64,000 bases of DNA from Elusimicrobia bacterium GWC2_64_44 (lineage in GTDB: Bacteria; Elusimicrobiota; Elusimicrobia; Elusimicrobiales; UBA9959): contig MGUG01000005.1 in the NCBI GenBank assembly GCA_001799845.1, positions 43,662 to 107,661 of the forward strand. Reading direction: 5' to 3'. The position numbers were made by a program, and so were the translations under genes. Below are positions 3,287-64,000 of this stretch, one piece after another (the first letter of the stretch is position 1; each line of letters begins with the position of its first letter). The notes beneath the pieces were generated by a model. That model was given only the letters and a program-made list of their open reading frames with translations, was not told the origin of the DNA and searched no databases.

Positions 3287-3784
3287 TCAGCGCGCGCCGG
3301 CCTTGGCGAAGAACTCCTTCGCGCGCGCCTTCATCTCCTCCGGCGACACGTCCGCCGTGTGCGTGGCCACGGTCCAGAGGTAGCCGTACGGGTCCTTCAA
3401 CTGGCCCACGCGGTCGCCCCAGAACATGTCCTCCATCTTGCCCATGGCCCGGGCGCCGGCCTGGACCGCGGTCTTGAAGACGGCGTCCGAGTTCTCCACG
3501 TAGAGATAGAGAGACACCGTGGTGCCCTTCAGTTCCGAAGGCGCCCTGGCGCAGGACTCCTCGTGGCCCGGGTGGTCGGCCGGCTCGCTGCCCAACATGA
3601 AGTTGGAGTTGCCTATCCTCAGCTCGGCGTGCATGATGCTGCCGTCCGGGTTCTCCATGCGGTAGTTCTCCTTCGCGCCGAACGCCTTCTTGTAGAAGTC
3701 GATGGCGCGAGCCCCGTCCCTGATCACCAAGCCAGGCGTGATGGTGTGATAACCCTGCGGTACAGGTTTTACTTTGTTTTTCAT
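3287..3784 (-). CDS. VOC/glyoxalase-like (PhnB-type) protein
   Basis: GYHTITPGLVIRDGARAIDFYKKAFGAKE...FWGDRVGQLKDPYGYLWTVATH. Confidence 0.85.
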   Translation of the reverse strand: MKNKVKPVPQGYHTITPGLVIRDGARAIDFYKKAFGAKENYRMENPDGSIMHAELRIGNSNFMLGSEPADHPGHEESCARAPSELKGTTVSLYLYVENSDAVFKTAVQAGARAMGKMEDMFWGDRVGQLKDPYGYLWTVATHTADVSPEEMKARAKEFFAKAGAR

Positions 3785-4007
3785 TTTCCCTCCCCGGCCC
3801 CGGGCTTGTTGACTTACACGCTGCCGCGCGGGCCCGGCGGCCCCCGCTTTACTTATAAAAAAGTTCCCGAGGCGCGGTCAAGCCTCCGAATTCCGGAGAA
3901 AACATACCGGATTCAGCCGCTGCCGGGGCAGTGTCGGCCAAATAAGTTCTATCTTAAGAGGGGGTTTCCCCGACGGAGGAGTCGTCCGAAAGCGCCGATC
4001 TGACCGT

Positions 4008-4958
4008 TCAGCCGCCGCCGGACAGCTTCTTTAGTGCCGTCACAGCGTAGGTCCTGACATGCGGGTCCGGATCGTTCAGCAGGACCTTGAGCGGACCTTC
4101 GGCCCTGGGGTCGGCCAGCTTGCCCAACGCCTCAGCCGCGGCGATGCGCACCAGGGCGTTCCGGTCGGACAAGGCGGCGATCAGGCAGTCGAGCGAGGCG
4201 GGGTGGCCAATGGAGCCCAGGGACTCGGCCGCGGCGAAGCGCACTGTGAGGTTCCCGTCCTTGAGGACCTCGCAGAGCGGCGCTACGGCGTCGTCCCCGC
4301 CGACCACGCCCAGGGCCCCTACGGCCTGGTAGCGCACGTCGCCGCTGGGATCTTTGAGGGCGGCTATGAGGGCCCCGGCCGAGCCTGCGCCCATGCGCAT
4401 CAGCGCGGCGATAGCGGCTTTCCGGACCTGCGGGTTCGGGTCCTTGAGGGCGGCCACCAGGGGCTGCCCCGCCCGGGAGTCCTTGAGCAGCCCCAGGGTC
4501 TCTATCGCCGAGATACGGACGTTCTCGTTAAGGTCGGAGAGCGCCGCGATCAGCGGCTCCACCGCGACGGCGCTGCGCGTCTTGCGCAGCGCGATGGCGG
4601 CGAGGTTTCGCACGTCGGGGCTGGAGTCGCTGAGAGCCGCCGCCAACGGGGCGGCCGCCGATTCGTCGGTCACCTCCCCCAGCACCAGCGCGGCGCACTT
4701 TCGCACCTCGTCGCTGGAGTCCTTGAGGGAGTTGATAAGGGGATGCCAGGCCTTCGGCTGCTTGAACTGGGCCAGGGCCATTACGGCATAGGCGCGCACC
4801 TGGGACACGGGATCCTTGAGGGCCGCGGTGAGAGGCTTGAGCGCCAGGACGTTGTGGATCTCGCCGAGGGCCTGGGCCGCCTGCCTCCTGGCCTCAGGGT
4901 CCCTGGACTTCAGCCGGTCAAGCCACCAGCCGATGACCGAAGTTTCGCGCTCTTTCAT
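4008..4958 (-). CDS. HEAT-repeat (PBS lyase-type) protein
   Basis: Multiple ~31-aa repeats of type LxxALKDPxxxVRxxAAxALGxL; ATG at 4958 preferred over 5006. Confidence 0.85.
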   Translation of the reverse strand: MKERETSVIGWWLDRLKSRDPEARRQAAQALGEIHNVLALKPLTAALKDPVSQVRAYAVMALAQFKQPKAWHPLINSLKDSSDEVRKCAALVLGEVTDESAAAPLAAALSDSSPDVRNLAAIALRKTRSAVAVEPLIAALSDLNENVRISAIETLGLLKDSRAGQPLVAALKDPNPQVRKAAIAALMRMGAGSAGALIAALKDPSGDVRYQAVGALGVVGGDDAVAPLCEVLKDGNLTVRFAAAESLGSIGHPASLDCLIAALSDRNALVRIAAAEALGKLADPRAEGPLKVLLNDPDPHVRTYAVTALKKLSGGG

Positions 4959-5237
4959 AATGTCGCGCCCGCCAGCTCCCCATGCCCGCGCCTTGATTTT
5001 ACCCAACCCGCAATTTACAAACTTAGCGCCGCGCAGTCAACCACACAAAGGCTCATACTATTATTACTTTACCCGAAAGCCGGCCCGCACTCCGCTCCCC
5101 GCGCTCGCGGCTCTTGTCGGCCAGGCCGTATTTTGCGGGGCGCAAGTGATAATTTTTTGCGTATTTGTGGCGATTGACAGCGGACGGGCATTTTAACTCT
5201 AATGCCTCCAGAGGGTCAGATCGGACAAGGGGGACAC

Positions 5238-5759
5238 ATGAAAGTACACATGAACGTTTATGATTTCGCCATAAAGATGGAGCTGGACGGCAGGGGCTTT
5301 TACGAGGGACTGGCCCGGGAGACGCGGCACGCCGGCCTGCGCGGCATCTTCCTGCAGCTCGCCGCCGACGAGCAGAAGCACCAGGATATTTTCCAGACAC
5401 TGAAGAAGGAGGCCAGGCCGGAGACGATGAAGGCCAGCACCGCCCTTGAGCAGGCCAAGAGCGTGTTCGCGGACCTGCTGGCGAAAAAGGAAACTTTCGC
5501 CCCCGCCGGGGACCTGGACAGCTACCGGCACGCGATGAAACTGGAGGCGGACAGCTTCCGGCTCTACGAAGGTGCGGCCAAAAAGGAGCAGGACAAGGGG
5601 ATCAGGGAGCTCCTGCTGCTCATCGCCGGCGAGGAGCACAGGCACTACGATATCCTGCGGAACATCTACGATTTCGCCAACGCCCCCAGCCAGTACCTGG
5701 CCTGGAGTGAGTTCAGCAACCTGGAAGAGTTCCGGCAGTTCGGCCGCGACGTGGATTGA
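5238..5759 (+). CDS. Ferritin-like/rubrerythrin-type diiron protein
   Basis: Two helical repeats with E...E--H (AADEQKHQDIF; AGEEHRHYDIL). Confidence 0.75.
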   Translation: MKVHMNVYDFAIKMELDGRGFYEGLARETRHAGLRGIFLQLAADEQKHQDIFQTLKKEARPETMKASTALEQAKSVFADLLAKKETFAPAGDLDSYRHAMKLEADSFRLYEGAAKKEQDKGIRELLLLIAGEEHRHYDILRNIYDFANAPSQYLAWSEFSNLEEFRQFGRDVD

Positions 5760-5781
5760 CCGGAGCTTTAAGGCCGGATGA

Positions 5782-5822
5782 AAAAGCCCGGGAGAGGCAG
5801 CCGCCACTCCCGGGTATTTTTC
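5782..5822. terminator. Intrinsic terminator (possibly bidirectional, convergent genes)
   Basis: CCCGGGAG...CTCCCGGG followed by TATTTTT. Confidence 0.7.
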
Positions 5823-5835
5823 GTTAACAGGAAGG

Positions 5836-6612
5836 CTATCGGAATATCTCGCCGAAGAAGTCCAGCAGCGCCCGCCAGGAGCGGCGGTCTGCCTTTTCGT
5901 CATAGGCCCCCCCGCTCTTCACGTCGGACCCGGCGGCCGGGTTGCTGAAGCGGTGCACCGCCCCGCCGTAGGCCACCAGCTGCCAGTCGGCGCCTGCCGC
6001 GCGCATCTCTGCCTCGAACCCGGCCACCGCCGCCGAGGACACGAAAGGGTCGTCCGCGCCGTGATAGACCGCTATTTTTGCCTTAACGGCTCCGGGCGCC
6101 GCCGGCAGCGCGGTATCCAGGCTGCCGTGAAAACTGGCAGCGCCGGAGAGCGCCGCGCCCGAGCGCGCCAGCTCCAGCGCCGCGCCGCCGCCGAAGCAAT
6201 AGCCGATGACCGCCGTCCTGGCCGGGTCCACTCCTGGCTGTCTCTTCAGTTCGGCCAGCGCCGCCCCGGCGCGCCGCCGCAGCAGCGCCCTGTCTCCGCG
6301 GTATTTGCCGGCTTCCGCGGCAGCCGCCGCCTGCGTTGAGGGCCGCACGCCCTTGCCGTAGATATCCCCGGCGAGGGCCACGTAGCCCAGCTTCGCCAGC
6401 TGGTCGGCCCGGCTTTTTTCGTAAGGGCCCAGGCCGGTCCATTCGTGGAATACCACCACGCCGGGACGCTTGCCCTTCAGCGCCGGGTCGTAGGCCAGGT
6501 AACCCTCCAGCTTTACCTCCCCGTCGAAGTAGTCCACCTCCGCCGTCCTGATCTCCGCCCCGGCCCGGCCCGCCAGCGCCAGGCCCATCACCGCCGCCGT
6601 CAGTATTTTCAT
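5836..6612 (-). CDS. Secreted dienelactone hydrolase family protein
   Basis: VVVFHEWTGLGPYEKSRADQLAKLGYVALAGDIYGKG; GYCFGGGAALELA nucleophile; YHGADDPFV; signal peptide. Confidence 0.85.
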   Translation of the reverse strand: MKILTAAVMGLALAGRAGAEIRTAEVDYFDGEVKLEGYLAYDPALKGKRPGVVVFHEWTGLGPYEKSRADQLAKLGYVALAGDIYGKGVRPSTQAAAAAEAGKYRGDRALLRRRAGAALAELKRQPGVDPARTAVIGYCFGGGAALELARSGAALSGAASFHGSLDTALPAAPGAVKAKIAVYHGADDPFVSSAAVAGFEAEMRAAGADWQLVAYGGAVHRFSNPAAGSDVKSGGAYDEKADRRSWRALLDFFGEIFR

Positions 6613-6622
6613 ATCCCCCCCT

Positions 6623-7372
6623 TTATGCCTCATTCACCCGGCCGGAAGGCGGCAGTTCATAATTTCCGTAGTGCAGGTCGGTGCCGCGCTTGTAGCCGGG
6701 ATAAAATCTTTTCGCTACCAGGTCCGCCAACGGGTCGGTGAGGGCGTTGAGGAAGGTGTAGCTCACATTGTCTTCCAGGTGGTGCCTGGCGTGCAGGCGC
6801 TTGTCGAGCAGCAGCCGGGCCCGGCCCAGCAGCAGGACCCACCGTGAAGTGGAGTTGTGGGCCAGGTAATGCGAAACCTCCGCCACCGAGGATAATACGC
6901 CGAAATACGCCAGCCCCCAGACCAGCGCCGGGCTGACGCCGGGGGCGTAGGACAGAAGGGCGGCGGCGGCGAGACAGGGAACCAGCCACACCTTGGAACC
7001 GCTCTCGTTGAAGTATACGAAGGGCAGCGGGTGATCCTGGTACCGGGGCCGCTTGTGATGCAGGTGAAAATTGGCTATCAGCGGCCCGCCCAGGGACTCG
7101 TAATCGTCCATGCAGTCGGTGTGCATGTGCACCAGCCCGTTGACGAAGTCCGCCGCGAGGTAAGCCGCGGCAAAGACAAGCAACTGCCGCGCCGCTCCTA
7201 TGGAATGGGCGGAAGCCCTGTAAACCAGGAAAGCCTGCAGCGAGACATTGGCCGCCGCCACGAGCTTGCCGAAGACCTTGTACCGGCGCCGCCCCTCGTA
7301 GAGGGCCATCGCCGCGTTGAACTGGGCGCGCTTGAGGCGCAGCCCGTCGTCAGCTGTATCTTTGTTGGTCAT
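6623..7372 (-). CDS. CarF/TMEM189-like lipid (plasmanylethanolamine) desaturase domain protein
   Basis: His clusters NGLVHMHTDC, IANFHLHHKRPRYQD, VSHYLAH, KRLHARHHLEDN in a multi-TM context. Confidence 0.6.
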   Translation of the reverse strand: MTNKDTADDGLRLKRAQFNAAMALYEGRRRYKVFGKLVAAANVSLQAFLVYRASAHSIGAARQLLVFAAAYLAADFVNGLVHMHTDCMDDYESLGGPLIANFHLHHKRPRYQDHPLPFVYFNESGSKVWLVPCLAAAALLSYAPGVSPALVWGLAYFGVLSSVAEVSHYLAHNSTSRWVLLLGRARLLLDKRLHARHHLEDNVSYTFLNALTDPLADLVAKRFYPGYKRGTDLHYGNYELPPSGRVNEA

Positions 7373-48627: not shown

Positions 48628-48734
48628 GGTAAAAACACGGTAAAAATGCGTGGGCCCTGGCGGTAGGCCGGTTAACGGAGGACTCCGGGACCAAAGACAC
48701 TTCTGGAACCGCGTGGGATGGCGTAAATTATAAT
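48628..48734 (+). promoter_or_regulatory. Conserved upstream element E1 (48628-48703) + -10 TATAAT (48729-48734)
   Basis: GGTAAAAACACGGTAAAA...GGGCCCTGGCGGTAGGCC...GACACTTC, 25 nt, TATAAT; shared with E2-E5. Confidence 0.75.
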
Positions 48735-48769: not shown

Positions 48770-49639
48770 ATGAAGAGAATTCTAATAGCAGCGGTGATGC
48801 TGGGTCTCGCGGGCGGTGCTTACGCGGCGGACTTCGGCGATCTGGGCGGAGTGAAAGCGGCCGGCCTTAAGGCCCTGGCAGCGGCGGAAGGCATTGTTGT
48901 CCCAGAGGTGAATAAAGGCTATGTGGCAGGAAACGATGCTGTGGTGGGTACGCCTTCCAAACCGGTTGAGTATATCACCATTAATGGCGGGGAATTCCCG
49001 ATGGGAACCGACAGCGGCGAGAAAGGTTTTGAAGACGCCAAGCCGATACATGAGGTATCCATCAAAACCTTTGGTATGTCCAAAACAGCGGTTACAGTGG
49101 AGCAATACGCGGAATGCGTTATCAAAGGCGGTTGCACGGACCCGGCCACCGGAGCCTATTGCAACTGGGGCAAGACCGGACGCCAGTTTCACCCGGTCAA
49201 CTGCGTGGATTGGAATCAGGCGCAGGCTTACGCCAAATTCAAAGGCGCCAGGCTCCCCAGCGAAGCCGAGTTCGAATACGCGGCCACCAGCGGCGGCAAG
49301 AACCAGAAATACCCGTGGGGCAATGAAGAACCGACCAGCGAACTGGCAGTGTTTCATACCAATGGCACCATGCCGGTCTGCTCCAAGCCCAAGGGGAATA
49401 CGGCGCATGGTTTATGTGATATGTCCGGCAATGTCTGGCAGTGGATGCAGGACAAGTACCAGGATTCGTATAAAGGTGCGTCTGTTGACGGCAGTGCGGT
49501 TGAAGGTGCGGGCTCCGCCCGGGTGGTTCGTGGCGGCTCCTTCAACATCGGTGGCGCCAGATACCTGCGGGCCGATGGCCGCAACTACTACGGCCCCGGC
49601 GGCCGCCGCGGCAGCATCGGGTTCCGCCTTGTGAGGTAA
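48770..49639 (+). CDS. Secreted FGE/sulfatase-modifying-factor (CLec) domain protein with shared AADF leader
   Basis: MKRILIAAVMLGLAGGAYAADFGDL; INGGEFPMGTD; WNQAQAYAKFKGARLPSEAEFEYAA; HGLCDMSGNVWQWMQD; ARVVRGGSFN...IGFRLVR. Confidence 0.88.
   Translation: MKRILIAAVMLGLAGGAYAADFGDLGGVKAAGLKALAAAEGIVVPEVNKGYVAGNDAVVGTPSKPVEYITINGGEFPMGTDSGEKGFEDAKPIHEVSIKTFGMSKTAVTVEQYAECVIKGGCTDPATGAYCNWGKTGRQFHPVNCVDWNQAQAYAKFKGARLPSEAEFEYAATSGGKNQKYPWGNEEPTSELAVFHTNGTMPVCSKPKGNTAHGLCDMSGNVWQWMQDKYQDSYKGASVDGSAVEGAGSARVVRGGSFNIGGARYLRADGRNYYGPGGRRGSIGFRLVR
49541..49639 (+). other. Candidate DGR-type variable region at C-terminus of CLec domain
   Basis: FNIGGARYLRADGRNYYGPGGRRGSIGFRLVR; most codons at template-Asn positions are NNC (ATC, GGC, TAC, TAC, GGC, CGC, AGC). 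Confidence 0.4.
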
Positions 49640-49713
49640 GTGTTGTTGACCCTTGGACACTTGAACTTTTGGCCCTTGGTCTTGAATCAGTTGCAGTAAA
49701 ATCAGTTTGCGGA

Positions 49714-49758
49714 GGTAGCGCACCGGGCGCGTGCGTAAGCCGCGCCCGGTGCGCTACC
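49714..49758. repeat. Perfect 18-bp inverted repeat, 9-nt loop, no T-tract
   Basis: GGTAGCGCACCGGGCGCG-TGCGTAAGC-CGCGCCCGGTGCGCTACC. Confidence 0.9.
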
Positions 49759-49797
49759 GGAGCACTAGGAATATAAATCCGGAACCGCGGCGGAGAA

Positions 49798-50172
49798 ATG
49801 AAACTCAAGATTTTCACCCTGCGTTTAAATCCGGCGACCGGACTTTTCGACGAGGGTGAGCTTGCGAGTTTCCAGTTGGCCAAAGATGTGATCGAGATCT
49901 CGGAACATTTCCTTGTCCACGAAAAGACGCCGACACTTTTACTGGTCCTGCGTTACAGAGAGCTTCCGGATGGTGACGGTGCGCGCCGGCAACCGGAGGC
50001 CGCGCGCAAGGACTGGCGCGCGGAGCTTGACGCGCAGGGACAGCGGATCTACGACGAGTTCAGATCGTGGCGCGGCCGCAAAGCCAAACAGGAAGGTTTA
50101 CCGCCCTACCTAATCCTTAATAATCGCGAGCTGGCGGAATTAGTAATGAAGCATCCGGCGAACGGGAGATAA
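49798..50172 (+). CDS. HRDC-domain protein resembling DGR accessory HRDC proteins
   Basis: MKLKIFTLRLNPATGLFDEGELASFQLAKDVIEISEHFLVHEKTPTLLLVLRYRE; C-terminal IYDEFRSWRGRKAKQEGLPPYLILNNRELAELV (HRDC). Confidence 0.65.
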   Translation: MKLKIFTLRLNPATGLFDEGELASFQLAKDVIEISEHFLVHEKTPTLLLVLRYRELPDGDGARRQPEAARKDWRAELDAQGQRIYDEFRSWRGRKAKQEGLPPYLILNNRELAELVMKHPANGR

Positions 50173-50286
50173 AGGGGACATCCCAAGCGGTTCCAGAATT
50201 TAGGGAATTATTCGACCCACTAGGCGGGGCCCACCTTGTTTTACCGGCCTTTAAAGCCGTATGGAACGGACTGTTTAACAGTCCCC

Positions 50287-52432: not shown

Positions 52433-53329
52433 ATGAATAAAAAGATAATAACGGCGGTGATGGTAATGATGGCGGGGCAGGCTTATGCTGCGGAGTTCAG
52501 CGATCTGCAGGCCATTAAGGCCGCGGAGTTGCGCACGACGGAGACGGGAAGGATCCCCGCGCCGGAGCAGCCGGAGCCAGCGGAGAATACGCAGAAGGGT
52601 GCGGCCGAGATACAAAGCGCGGTGCTTAAGATCAGCAATTATTCCGAGAAGGAGTTCAGTGGAGCGTTTCTCAACACCAAAGAATTAGCGGACCTTACCA
52701 ACCAGATGAACTATATAGCCGGCCTTCCCGCCAGGGACATCCCCGTGCAGCTGCTGGGCTATCTGGAAGGGATGAGCGTTACCCTGCAGTACCAGCTCCC
52801 GAGAGGCCCGGTCGGACGCAATGTCTCCCCCGCCATGAAAGCGGCACGCGCCATGCAGGCCAAGGTAACCTCGGTGAAACAGCCGGATAAAGCCCTGCGC
52901 GGCAGCCTGACCTTCGCGGTCGGGAACGTTTCGCTAAAGCTGGCCCCGCTCAACTTCACCCCGGCAGCCGTAGACGCCAGCCTGACCTGCCGGTTCGAGG
53001 ACGGTTCCGGCTCGGTGGGCGCGCGCCCCGAACAGGAACTGCCTGTAAGGGTTTCGGGGACCGGCAACCTTTACCAGGTGGAGATCTCCGCGGGCAAGCT
53101 GTCAAAGTTCAGCCTGTTCACCGCTCCCAAGTCCTGCCAGTACGTGCTCAACGTACGTTCCGTCTCCGGCGTTTCCGGCAGCGTAACCCTGGCCGGGTCC
53201 GCATTCAACATGACGCGCGAGGAACTGAGCGAGCTTCTCTCCGACACGAGGCTCAACGAAGCTATCTCCGCCCAGAACCAGCCCCTCCGGCTTATGGAGC
53301 GGAACGGCTTTATAGTCTCCGTCAAGTAG
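52433..53329 (+). CDS. Secreted protein of unknown function with shared AAEF leader
   Basis: MNKKIITAVMVMMAGQAYAAEFSDLQAIKAAELR; 298 aa; terminator downstream. Confidence 0.7.
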   Translation: MNKKIITAVMVMMAGQAYAAEFSDLQAIKAAELRTTETGRIPAPEQPEPAENTQKGAAEIQSAVLKISNYSEKEFSGAFLNTKELADLTNQMNYIAGLPARDIPVQLLGYLEGMSVTLQYQLPRGPVGRNVSPAMKAARAMQAKVTSVKQPDKALRGSLTFAVGNVSLKLAPLNFTPAAVDASLTCRFEDGSGSVGARPEQELPVRVSGTGNLYQVEISAGKLSKFSLFTAPKSCQYVLNVRSVSGVSGSVTLAGSAFNMTREELSELLSDTRLNEAISAQNQPLRLMERNGFIVSVK

Positions 53330-53540: not shown

Positions 53541-53575
53541 CGGTGGCACAGACCGGCGGACAATAAAGGAGACAA

Positions 53576-53910
53576 GTATTCTGATAGCGGCGGTGATGAT
53601 AGGCCTTCCCGGCTGCGCGTATGCCGCTGATTTCAGTGACCTGGCCGGCGTAAGCCCCGCTGACCTGAAAGATATTGCAATGTCGGGGGATTCCGGCAGA
53701 TCTGTGGAAAACATAAGCGCGGTTATCGCTTGTTTTTCCAGAAGTCGATCTTTTTTCCTTCGCTTGGAATTTAAAAAAGCCGTCGCCGCCATCTGTTTTA
53801 TCTGTACTAGCAAAAAGCGGTGCGTTTTTATGAATTTCGCATGGTATTCCCCCGCGCCCGGCAGCAGTGGTCGGGCGGGTCAGTCATCAACCGGGGCGGG
53901 TTCTATTACA
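53576..53910 (+). pseudogene. Decayed AADF-leader family member lacking its start codon
   Basis: acaagtattctgatagcggcggtgatgata versus aaaagatatgaagagaattctaatagcagcggtgatgctg: ~8 nt containing ATG missing; then GLPGCAYAADFSDLAGVSPADLKDIAMSG. Confidence 0.65.
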
Positions 53911-59520: not shown

Positions 59521-62500
59521 CTACCGAATCACAGCGAACTTCCCCTTCCTGATCGTTTCACCACCGGCTCCGCTGATCTTTATAAGGTAGAAGTACGCGC
59601 CGCTGGCCGCCCCTTTGGCGTCCCATTCGTATTCATAGGCGGACACCAGTTGATTGTTCCTGTTCACCAGTAAAGGACCGCCAGTAAGCGTCTTTTTGTG
59701 TATTACCCTGCCAGTAAAGTCTATTACTTTTATTTCCACTTTATCGGCCGTCTCGGTCTCTATGTGAAACACAGGTCTGGCCCCATTCTTGGCCGGATTG
59801 GGGAACACATACACGCTGCCCACTATCTCAGGCGTGCTCAAAACAGGCACCATACTGAACAACCTGTACACCGAGAATATCTCCGTCTCAGCGTTCATAG
59901 TATTATCCACAGGGTCATACGTGGAAACCAGCGGCGTCCAGACCCCGGTGGCATCGTCCCAGGCGTAGATGCCAACCACGCTCTGCATTGTTGCCGATAC
60001 GGTTGCAGACCGCCTAACCGGCACCTTGATCCTTATGGGGCTCGACGCCGTGTAATTTTCCGGCAGGACCCTGACACCGGCCGCTATCGGGACTATTTTC
60101 TGAAGTTTCGCCCTGGCTTCACGTTCAGCCAACAGTTCGTCATCATCAATACTTTCGTCAACTACGCTTACCAAGACCGGGTCGGTAATTGACATGGGCG
60201 CTATTGTGACGCTTGCGCTTGCGGCAAGAATCACACTACCCACTGAGGAGACCACAGCATCGGTCCTTTGCCGATTGTTTATGGTAAGACTGACGGAGGC
60301 CGCGGCCATGTTGCTACCCGTGTCATAGGCCCGGACACTTATCACGTGAACGCCATTAGTGAATTTAAGCGTATTCAACTTATATATGTACGGAGCAATC
60401 CCATCGATAACTTTTAACACATTATCGACGTAAAACCCGACCCTGTCCACCCCGTTAGCATCAGAAGCGGAAACGGTTACATACACCGTACCGGACACGG
60501 TAGCGCCGTTTGACGGCGCCGTAATGGAAACTGCAGGCGGAGTGATATCCGTCATCGAGTTAAACACTGCTACCGTAACCTGGGCCTGCGCGGAATTACC
60601 GGCCGCATCGTAAGCCTTTACAACGATCACATGCGTCCCGTTGCTAAGCAGGGTGGTATCCAATGCGATTGAATATGGCGCGGCGGCGGCAAGGCCTTTA
60701 AGCATGTTGTCAGTATAAAGCTCGACGCGAGCCACTCCTATATTATCTGCAGCGGCAACCGAGACCATAACAATCCCCGAAACTCCCGCGCCGGCGGACG
60801 GGGCAGTAATGAAAACTACCGGCACTATAACATCGGCTGCTGCCAATGTGGTGGCCCAGCCTGAAGCGCTGTTAGCTGACACATTGCCCGCCGCGTCAGA
60901 AGCACGCAACCTGGTGTAATACGGCGTCTGCGCCGACAGCCCGGCTATGGCTACAGAAGTCACATTGCCAAGCGCAAGGTTACTATACCCAGCAACAAAG
61001 CTGGTGAACCCGGAATTAAGCGATACGTCCAGCTGGTATCCGGTTACACCCACATTGTCGGTAGCGGCGGCCCAGCCAAGCGTGAAGCCAGTGTCGCTTA
61101 TATTAGAGACCACAAGCCCGGCCGGCGCATTGGGCGAGGTAGAATCCGGCGCGGCCAGCGTAGTGGCCAACCTTGAAGCGCTATTAGCCGATATATTACC
61201 AGCCGCATCATAAGCGCGCAACCTGGCATAATACGGCGTCTGCGCCGACAGCCCGGCTATGGCTACAGAAGTCACATTGCCAAGCGCAAGGTTACTATAC
61301 CCAGCCACAAAGCTGGTGAACCCGGAATTAAGCGATACGTCCAGCCGGTATCCGGTTACACCCACATTGTCGGTAGCGGCGGCCCAGCCAAGCGTGAAGC
61401 CGGTATCGCTTATATTCGAGGATACCAGCCCGCTCGGTATATTAGGCGCGACAACATCCGGCCCGAGCAGCGTCGAGGTTAAAAGCACCGACTGATTAGC
61501 CGAGACATTACCGGCCGCGTCGTAAGCGCGCACACGGGCGTAATACGGCGTCTGCGCCGACAGCCCTGATATACCTACAGAAGTCACATTACCCAAATTA
61601 AGGTTATTGTAACCCGCGACAAAGCTGGTGAACCCGGAATTTAGCGATACGTCCAGCCGGTATCCGGATACACCCACGTTGTCGGTCGCCGCTGACCAGC
61701 CAAGCGTATACCCCATGTCGCTTATATTAGATGACACCAGGCCGGTAGGCGCGTTCGGCGGCGTTACATCGGGCGCGGCCAGCGTAGTGGCCAGGCGTGA
61801 AACGCTGTTGGCTGAAACATTGCCCGCCGCGTCATAAGCGCGCAACCTGGCATAATACGGCGTCTGCGCCGACAGCCCGGCTATGGCTACAGAAGTCACA
61901 TTGCCAAGCGCAAGGTTACTATACCCAGCCACAAAGCTGGTGAACCCGGAATTAAGCGATACGTCCAGCCGGTATCCGGTTACACCCACATTGTCGGTAG
62001 CGGCGGCCCAGCCAAGCGTGAAGCCGGTATCGCTTATGTTAGAAGCTGCAAGCCCCGTCGGCGCGTTAGGCGCGGTAACATCGGGCGCGGCCAGTGTTGT
62101 AACCAGCAGCGGCGCCTGATTAACCGATATATTACCAGCCGCGTCATAAGCGCGCAACCTGGCATAATACGGCGTCTGCGCAGACAGCCCGGCTATGGCT
62201 ACAGAAGTCACATTCCCAAGCGCAAGGTTACTATACCCAGCCACAAAGCTGGTGAACCCGGAATTAAGCGAGACGTCCAGCCGGTATCCGGTTACCCCCA
62301 CGTTGTCGGTAGCGGCGGTCCAGCCCAGCATGAAGCCGGTGTCGCTTATGTTAGAAGCCACAAGGCCGGTCGGCGCGTTAGGCGCGGTAACATCGGGCGC
62401 AGCCAGCGTTGTAACAAGCAGCGGCGCCTGATTAGCCGATATATTCCCCGCCGCGTCATAAGCGCGCAGCCTGACATAATACGACGTCTGCGCAGACAGC

Positions 62501-64000
62501 CCGGCTATGGCTGCGGAAGTCACCTTGCCAAGCGCAAGGTTACTATACCCAGTCACAAAGCTGGTGAACCCGGAATTAAGTGAGACGTCCAGCCGGTAGC
62601 CCGTTACCCCCACGTTATCCGTTGAAGCAGTCCAGCCCAGCATGAAGCCGGTGTCGCTTATGTTAGAAGCCACAAGGCCGGTCGGCGCGTTAGGCGCAGT
62701 AACATCGGGCGCGGCCAACGTTGTAACCAGCAACGGCGCCTGATTAGCCGATATATTCCCCGCCGCATCATAAGCGCGCAGCCTGGCATAATACGGCGTC
62801 TGCGCCGATAGACCAGAGACTACGGTAGAAGCCACACTGCCCAAGTCCTTGTTGCTGTAACCCGTGACAAAGCTGGTGAACCCGGAATTAAGCGACACAT
62901 CCAGCCGGTAACCGGCCACGCCAACATTATCAGCGGCCGCGGTCCAGCCCAAAGTGAAGCCGGCGGCGCCTATATTAGAAGCTGCCAGCCCCAAAGGCGC
63001 GGTCGGCGACGAAACATCAAGCGTAGTGGTCAGAAGCGAAGCGCTGTTGGCAGACACGTTCCCGGCAGCGTCATAAGCGCGCAAGCGGGCATAATAAGCG
63101 ACGCCATCGCTCAGCCCAGATATCAACGAGCTGGTAACAGCGCCGACATCCTTGCTGTTATAGCCGCTGACGAAACTGGTGAACCCGGAATTAAGCGATA
63201 CGTCCAGCCTGTAGCCCACTACTCCCACATTGTCAGTGGAAGCGGTCCAGCCCAAAGTGAACGCCGAGCCGCCCACATTAGACGCTGCCAGTCCCGCCGG
63301 CACCGTCGGTGATGAGGTGTCTATGGTAGTAACTGGCAACGAAGCGCTGTTAGGCGAAACGTTCCCCGCCGCGTCATAAGCGCGCAGCCTGGCGTAATAT
63401 GCCGTGCCGGCTGAAAGCCCGGCAATGTTAGTGCGGACCACATTCCCGATATCTTTATTGCCATAGCCGGCCACAAAACTGGTGAACCCAGAATTAAGCG
63501 ACACGTCCAGCCGGTAACCGGCCACCCCCACATTATCCGTGGCCGCCGTCCAGCCCAGCGTGAACGCCGCGCTGCTGATATTCGACGCCACTAGTGCGCT
63601 CGGCACCGTAGGGTATGAGATATCCGCCACATTAACCGTTATTGACGCCAACGAGCTATTACCCGCAACATCGTAAGCCCGCACCGCCAAAGCATGGTTG
63701 GCAGCGCTCACCCCGCTCGTATTCCAGGCATAACTGTACGGGCTTGACGTATCGGTAGAAGCCGACACCCCGTCTATATAGAACACAACCCTGTCTACAT
63801 CAACATTATCTGCAGCTGCGGCGTTGATAGCTACCGAGCCGGTTACTGTGGAACCGTTCGCCGGGGCAGAAACAGACACCGTCGGCGCTATAATGTCTGC
63901 CAACTCCACACTTATCGCGCACACTTTGGCATTATTTACCACGCCCGTGAACTGGATACTGATCTGCCCACCCGTGACCGTTACGGGGATTGACCTGTCC
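59521..64000 (-). CDS. Giant secreted surface protein (5' end outside window): malectin-like end, Ig-like, nine FN3, Ig-like x2, T9SS/FlgD-like C-terminal domain
   Basis: Frame stays open past 63942 to window edge (DRSIPVTVTGGQISIQFTGVVNNAKVCAISVELADI); FN3 units GLVASNISDTGFTLGWxAATDNVGVTGYRLDVSLNSGFTSFV; C-term VYVFPNPAKNGARP...VEIKVIDFTGRVIHKK...YEWDAKGAASGAYFYLIKI...RKGKFAVIR. Confidence 0.85.
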   Translation of the reverse strand, partial: DRSIPVTVTGGQISIQFTGVVNNAKVCAISVELADIIAPTVSVSAPANGSTVTGSVAINAAAADNVDVDRVVFYIDGVSASTDTSSPYSYAWNTSGVSAANHALAVRAYDVAGNSSLASITVNVADISYPTVPSALVASNISSAAFTLGWTAATDNVGVAGYRLDVSLNSGFTSFVAGYGNKDIGNVVRTNIAGLSAGTAYYARLRAYDAAGNVSPNSASLPVTTIDTSSPTVPAGLAASNVGGSAFTLGWTASTDNVGVVGYRLDVSLNSGFTSFVSGYNSKDVGAVTSSLISGLSDGVAYYARLRAYDAAGNVSANSASLLTTTLDVSSPTAPLGLAASNIGAAGFTLGWTAAADNVGVAGYRLDVSLNSGFTSFVTGYSNKDLGSVASTVVSGLSAQTPYYARLRAYDAAGNISANQAPLLVTTLAAPDVTAPNAPTGLVASNISDTGFMLGWTASTDNVGVTGYRLDVSLNSGFTSFVTGYSNLALGKVTSAAIAGLSAQTSYYVRLRAYDAAGNISANQAPLLVTTLAAPDVTAPNAPTGLVASNISDTGFMLGWTAATDNVGVTGYRLDVSLNSGFTSFVAGYSNLALGNVTSVAIAGLSAQTPYYARLRAYDAAGNISVNQAPLLVTTLAAPDVTAPNAPTGLAASNISDTGFTLGWAAATDNVGVTGYRLDVSLNSGFTSFVAGYSNLALGNVTSVAIAGLSAQTPYYARLRAYDAAGNVSANSVSRLATTLAAPDVTPPNAPTGLVSSNISDMGYTLGWSAATDNVGVSGYRLDVSLNSGFTSFVAGYNNLNLGNVTSVGISGLSAQTPYYARVRAYDAAGNVSANQSVLLTSTLLGPDVVAPNIPSGLVSSNISDTGFTLGWAAATDNVGVTGYRLDVSLNSGFTSFVAGYSNLALGNVTSVAIAGLSAQTPYYARLRAYDAAGNISANSASRLATTLAAPDSTSPNAPAGLVVSNISDTGFTLGWAAATDNVGVTGYQLDVSLNSGFTSFVAGYSNLALGNVTSVAIAGLSAQTPYYTRLRASDAAGNVSANSASGWATTLAAADVIVPVVFITAPSAGAGVSGIVMVSVAAADNIGVARVELYTDNMLKGLAAAAPYSIALDTTLLSNGTHVIVVKAYDAAGNSAQAQVTVAVFNSMTDITPPAVSITAPSNGATVSGTVYVTVSASDANGVDRVGFYVDNVLKVIDGIAPYIYKLNTLKFTNGVHVISVRAYDTGSNMAAASVSLTINNRQRTDAVVSSVGSVILAASASVTIAPMSITDPVLVSVVDESIDDDELLAEREARAKLQKIVPIAAGVRVLPENYTASSPIRIKVPVRRSATVSATMQSVVGIYAWDDATGVWTPLVSTYDPVDNTMNAETEIFSVYRLFSMVPVLSTPEIVGSVYVFPNPAKNGARPVFHIETETADKVEIKVIDFTGRVIHKKTLTGGPLLVNRNNQLVSAYEYEWDAKGAASGAYFYLIKISGAGGETIRKGKFAVIR
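60840..63620 (-). repeat. Nine tandem FN3-coding repeats, core period 312 nt (104 aa)
   Basis: Near-identical blocks, e.g. GGCTATGGCTACAGAAGTCACATT(G/C)CCAAGCGCAAGGTTACTATACCC at 312-nt spacing. Confidence 0.9.

Follow-up and report, generated by a model that had tools for sequence, protein, structure and literature searches.

An orphan target of a diversity-generating retroelement in an Elusimicrobia genome, probably rewritten in trans by a driver outside the assembly

The diversity-generating retroelement (DGR) of Treponema denticola, whose target is TvpA, combines a target of the C-type-lectin (CLec)/FGE type with an HRDC accessory gene. Isolates of this species also carry target genes that have A-biased variable regions (VRs) and are accompanied by neither a reverse transcriptase (RT) nor a template repeat (TR); these were called remnants of a lost DGR (PMC4891356). 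In the DGR of Bordetella phage BPP-1 (mtd/avd/brt) the transfer from TR to VR is A-specific, Avd is present, and the VR, not the TR, is followed by a GC-rich hairpin whose stem is 7-10 bp long and whose loop has 4 nt (GRNA); it is located 4-34 bp past the VR and is necessary for homing (PMC3240598). Dispersed CLec targets with a distant RT have been reported from cyanobacteria, as have DGRs carried on plasmids (PMC7517822). The best named plasmid relative of the RT described below, with 52% amino acid identity and accompanied by Avd, belongs to the plasmid DGR of Prosthecochloris aestuarii (NC_011061), a member of a different phylum. A literature search for DGRs in Elusimicrobi- taxa returned, at the level of titles and abstracts, nothing on the present locus.

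The locus lies in the window, the whole 64,000-nucleotide stretch of Elusimicrobia bacterium GWC2_64_44 DNA that was analysed (Table 1). It is probably a satellite (orphan) DGR target on which a driver outside the assembly, plausibly a mobile one, still acts in trans or did so until recently. Compared to the T. denticola system, the Elusimicrobia cassette has Avd besides HRDC and a TR that overlaps the 3' end of the RT gene, its orphan targets recur both within the genus and in neighbouring ones, and a circular MobF plasmid carries the nearest driver that was found in the genus. It differs from BPP-1 in the presence of HRDC and in its hairpin, which has a 9-bp core stem and a 9-nt loop and lies 54-131 nt past the VR. 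In contrast to the cyanobacterial systems, most of these Elusimicrobia genomes are without any cognate RT or TR. Orphan targets and plasmid DGRs are each already known; the unusual part is the genus-wide excess of freshly rewritten targets over drivers.

Table 1. Coordinates of the features in the window and of the intact cassette in the genus-mate G053.
Feature	Position	Strand	Basis or remark
DGR target gene, 289 aa: Sec-type leader (~aa 1-20) and FGE-sulfatase/C-type-lectin-type domain	48770..49639	+	ORF, Pfam, phmmer
VR, 127 bp, homologous to G053 TR	49509..49635	+	A-specific mismatches, third-base retention
Hairpin/cruciform after VR: 18-bp perfect stem, 9-nt loop TGCGTAAGC	49714..49758 (arms 49714-49731/49741-49758)	+	Inverted repeat, DNA fold z = -4.3
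Truncated DGR accessory HRDC gene, 124 aa	49798..50172	+	Homologous to aa 1-123 of 212-aa G053 protein
Left arm of 20-bp (19/20) inverted repeat	48701..48720	+	Brackets target and HRDC remnant exactly
Right arm of 20-bp (19/20) inverted repeat	50179..50198	-	Starts where intact-cassette homology stops
G053 cassette (L084)	Target 3717-4682, HRDC 4866-5504, Avd 5386-5730, RT 5727-6764, TR 6747-6873

The C-terminus of the target gene product was an exact match to the one quoted in the first-pass annotation, and its identification there as a CLec/FGE protein was confirmed by Pfam (FGE-sulfatase, PF03781, E 4e-49) and by a phmmer match to T. denticola variable protein 1, which is itself the target of a DGR (PDB 2y3c, E 7e-16). 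The DGR target of G053 is 76-80% identical to it at the amino acid level. By these sequence matches the protein is predicted to have a CLec-fold scaffold; its AlphaFold model, built on a shallow alignment, had a pLDDT of 33. There was no cysteine in the VR. The FGE motif RGGSYLCHDSYC is RGGSFNIGGARY in the window protein, and the FGE catalytic cysteine pair, looked for in the C-terminal region of the protein sequence, was absent.

The locus had been proposed from the window alone to be a DGR target, and comparison with the TR of G053 supported this reading. In a gapless alignment to this TR, which comes from a relative and not from the same genome, the window VR differed at 21 of 35 A sites and at 3 of 92 non-A sites (Fisher p = 6e-12), so that 21 of the 24 mismatches fell on template A's; the search for a TR with A-specific mismatches thus succeeded with the TRs of relatives. 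All three non-A differences were also present in the VRs of other species, leaving no private non-A changes. The VR had been placed at 49530-49639; its 3' location was borne out, but the TR-homologous stretch begins at 49509. At the 13 AAC or AAT codons of the relatives' template the third base was kept in every case (including AAT to GGT) while the codon was changed in 11, and since elsewhere in the gene only 33.5% of the codons end in C (P = 7e-7 for the retention), the NNC codon pattern noticed earlier is real and exceeds the GC3 background. Third-position identity to G053 was 0.62 in the body of the target and 0.60 in the HRDC gene, compared to 0.95 at the non-A third positions of the VR (binomial P = 4e-5). 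Since about 38% of third positions no longer agree in the coding sequence around the VR, the rewriting of the VR is much younger than the divergence of the genes. In old paralogs of the same family, which served as a control (G053:C99 and G041 d), the A bias was not significant (p 0.07-0.08) and 32-33 of 92 non-A sites differed; a VR that has been abandoned is expected to lose its A signal in this way.

The window VR was therefore almost certainly written by a DGR. The alternative is an ordinary protein of the FGE fold with a C-terminus that only looks like a DGR variable region and with NNC codons that reflect high GC3. FGE C-termini do have the same RVxRGGS...R...GFR layout and the DNA is GC-rich, but this explanation is refuted by the TR comparison, that is by mismatches almost confined to A, third-base retention and the conservation of VR non-A third positions, and it does not account for the DGR-type hairpin and accessory gene or for a VR without cysteine, hence without the FGE catalytic pair. 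We consider it extremely improbable. VRs of different genera are nearly identical at their non-A sites, which could be read as proof of horizontal transfer. This reading was weakened to recent rewriting, because the TR of DeMMO, whose RT is 85% identical in amino acid sequence, differs at only 2 of 92 non-A sites and thus shows that TRs themselves evolve slowly.

The intact cassette of G053 was identified when 59 genomes of the family were searched with the target and with RVT_1. In it a 76%-identical target lies beside a short RT, Avd matched NF033474 above the cut-off and the TR overlaps the 3' end of the RT gene; of the 22 sites at which the cassette's own VR differs from its TR, 21 are template A's. 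The same order, target-HRDC-Avd-RT-TR, was found in G011, the DeMMO5_7 contig, G190, G234 (two cassettes), G214, G175 and G219. The DeMMO5_7 cassette (L206), complete from the FGE target to the TR, is on a 3.8-kb contig filed in a 'Bacillota' MAG; it is probably mis-binned, and its placement is compatible with a mobile or hard-to-bin carrier. The records with the relatives' loci were mostly Elusimicrobia/Elusimicrobiales MAGs, and the viral contigs yielded one distant relative of the RT (39%). Other DGR loci of the same family also had A-biased TR/VR pairs (L086, L088, L092, L093 and L094, in G053:C18, G049, G013 twice and G018); their RTs share no more than about 37-43% identity with the G053 type.

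Comparison with these cassettes showed that the HRDC protein, previously likened to a DGR accessory, is encoded by a truncated copy of the gene that lies between the target and Avd-RT in G053, G011, DeMMO5_7 and others. It is 84% identical to the G053 protein in amino acid sequence; after the homologous part there is a 13-nt gap and then a stop, and in the nucleotide alignment the homology continues beyond the gap, out of frame, to about 50177. The HRDC domain is partial (profile positions 3-42 of 68), not the complete domain of an intact accessory. HRDC remnants in other species vary in length (aa 1-28 in G047, aa 1-43/53 in G056), which indicates that the cassette decayed more than once. The arms of the inverted repeat that brackets the locus are possible ends of a mobile unit; no obvious target-site duplication accompanied them, and the repeat was not found in the other loci compared. 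This repeat aside, the sequence after the HRDC junction had no similarity to those loci. In a comparison of synteny, orthologs of the downstream response regulator were close to FGE targets in G040 and G041, whereas those in G034 and G037 had no target nearby; no clean empty site for the locus emerged. It is very likely that the local cassette has decayed.

The perfect 18-bp inverted repeat described after the gene was confirmed as a hairpin, in keeping with the GC-rich hairpin expected downstream of a DGR target VR. Its core, CCGGGCGCG-TGCGTAAGC-CGCGCCCGG, follows VRs in about nine species and is absent after the G053 TR; the spacer between VR and hairpin is likewise conserved. A genome-wide pattern scan for the core returned ten stretches, nine of them in Elusimicrobia/Elusimicrobiales records; the exception was the DeMMO5_7 contig, which carries a complete cassette of the same type. 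No match to the pattern was found in viral contigs. Fresh VRs without the hairpin were seen in G024, G027, G046 and, in one case, G041, and were counted against the satellite-target reading.

The absence of an RT and a TR, first reported for the window, extended to the whole source assembly (3.09 Mb, 60 contigs, 90.2% complete). No RT was detected there with the RVT_1 profile or in searches with cognate DGR RTs, no Avd was matched, and no TR was found, the VR matching only itself and otherwise giving short GC-rich hits; all three components of a complete DGR are thus missing from the assembly. The driver may either have been lost or be located on unassembled or mobile DNA.

Given the incompleteness of the assembly, the RT and TR could simply fall in its unassembled part, a point counted against a trans driver on mobile DNA. 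The locus would then be a normal remote target of a complete cassette elsewhere on the same chromosome. G190 offers a parallel, in that a decayed second copy (L232:2053-3180), in which a deletion has joined HRDC to the end of Avd and the start of RT, lies near an intact cassette, and its VR differs from the TR of that cassette at 17 of 28 A sites and 1 of 99 non-A sites; the sequences indicate that an intact cassette can serve decayed copies. However, 11 other genomes (G021, G022, G024, G025, G027, G032, G041, G046, G047, G048 and G056; estimated completeness 63-100%) lack a cognate RT, although each has one or more VRs that differ from the G053 TR at 0-6 non-A sites. For an RT located on ordinary chromosomal DNA, the joint chance of this would be about 1e-15, a rough bound, as marker completeness is no gauge of mobile or repeat-rich DNA. 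A cassette in the missing tenth of the chromosome is accordingly quite unlikely. Recent complete loss, with the driver deleted and the VR now frozen, is in agreement with the truncation of HRDC by deletion, with the unequal remnants in G047 and G056 and with the Treponema precedent (PMC4891356). It would, on the other hand, require that about a dozen species lost the driver independently and very recently, because few of the VRs are old enough to show decay at their non-A sites, and we regard it as unlikely. The third possibility, a recent trans driver on mobile DNA, was judged to have slightly less than an even chance.

The only close copy of the element that was identified in the genus lies on the circular, mobilizable 15.5-kb plasmid of G053. 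The ends of this contig overlap by exactly 141 bp, giving a circle of 15,510 bp, and it encodes ParA, ParB and a MobF relaxase that scored above the cut-off; from its sequence it is very probably a plasmid. Binning often misses plasmids, which would explain the fresh VRs without drivers. Searches of the other fresh-VR genomes yielded no relaxase of the G053 type. Two chromosomal paralogs of G053 were stale relative to the plasmid TR (15 and 33 of 92 non-A sites), a result that was counted against trans action from this plasmid, and intact cassettes of other families are on longer contigs (311 kb in G214), so the DGR is not always plasmid-borne. That a travelling mobilizable plasmid carries the driver and, in many Elusimicrobia species, rewrites the resident targets on the chromosome in trans is therefore put forward only tentatively. 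If true, chromosomes would keep only target and hairpin, and diversification would be supplied by an element passing between hosts; the circular G053 plasmid makes the rewriting of chromosomal genes in trans by a mobile DGR directly testable.

The mechanism proposed for the satellite target builds on what was directly observed, namely the A-specific VR/TR pattern, the hairpin, the cassette anatomy of relatives, the truncation and the lack of RT and TR in the assembly. The locus would consist of the gene of a secreted variable protein of the CLec/FGE type, the homing hairpin and the 5' part of HRDC that remained after a deletion had removed the 3' part of HRDC, Avd, RT and TR. The VR would have been overwritten by cDNA from a TR nearly identical to that of G053, with template adenines randomised, and this cDNA installed upstream of the hairpin. 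The RT and TR would act, or have acted recently, in trans from DNA outside the bin, most plausibly a mobilizable plasmid like that of G053, with complete recent loss as the alternative.

Most of the recently rewritten VRs that were found in the genus are in genomes without a cognate RT, so that hypervariable proteins are undercounted; DGR surveys take the RT as their starting point and, according to one large survey, miss targets that are not adjacent to it (PMC8144416). The freshness of a VR at non-A sites provides a clock by which active targets can be told from retired ones.

Some further observations were made on other proteins of the region. The N-terminal leader of the target (approximately aa 1-39; 48770-48886) is common to two neighbouring genes (52433-52540 and about 53575-53685), and many genes with such a leader were found in G041:C34 (L186, L178). 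These sequences suggest a leader-defined set of putative exported proteins with swapped C-termini. The protein encoded at 59521-63942 of the window has 1473 aa and fn3/bacterial-Ig repeats, and it weakly matches the Por secretion C-terminal sorting domain.
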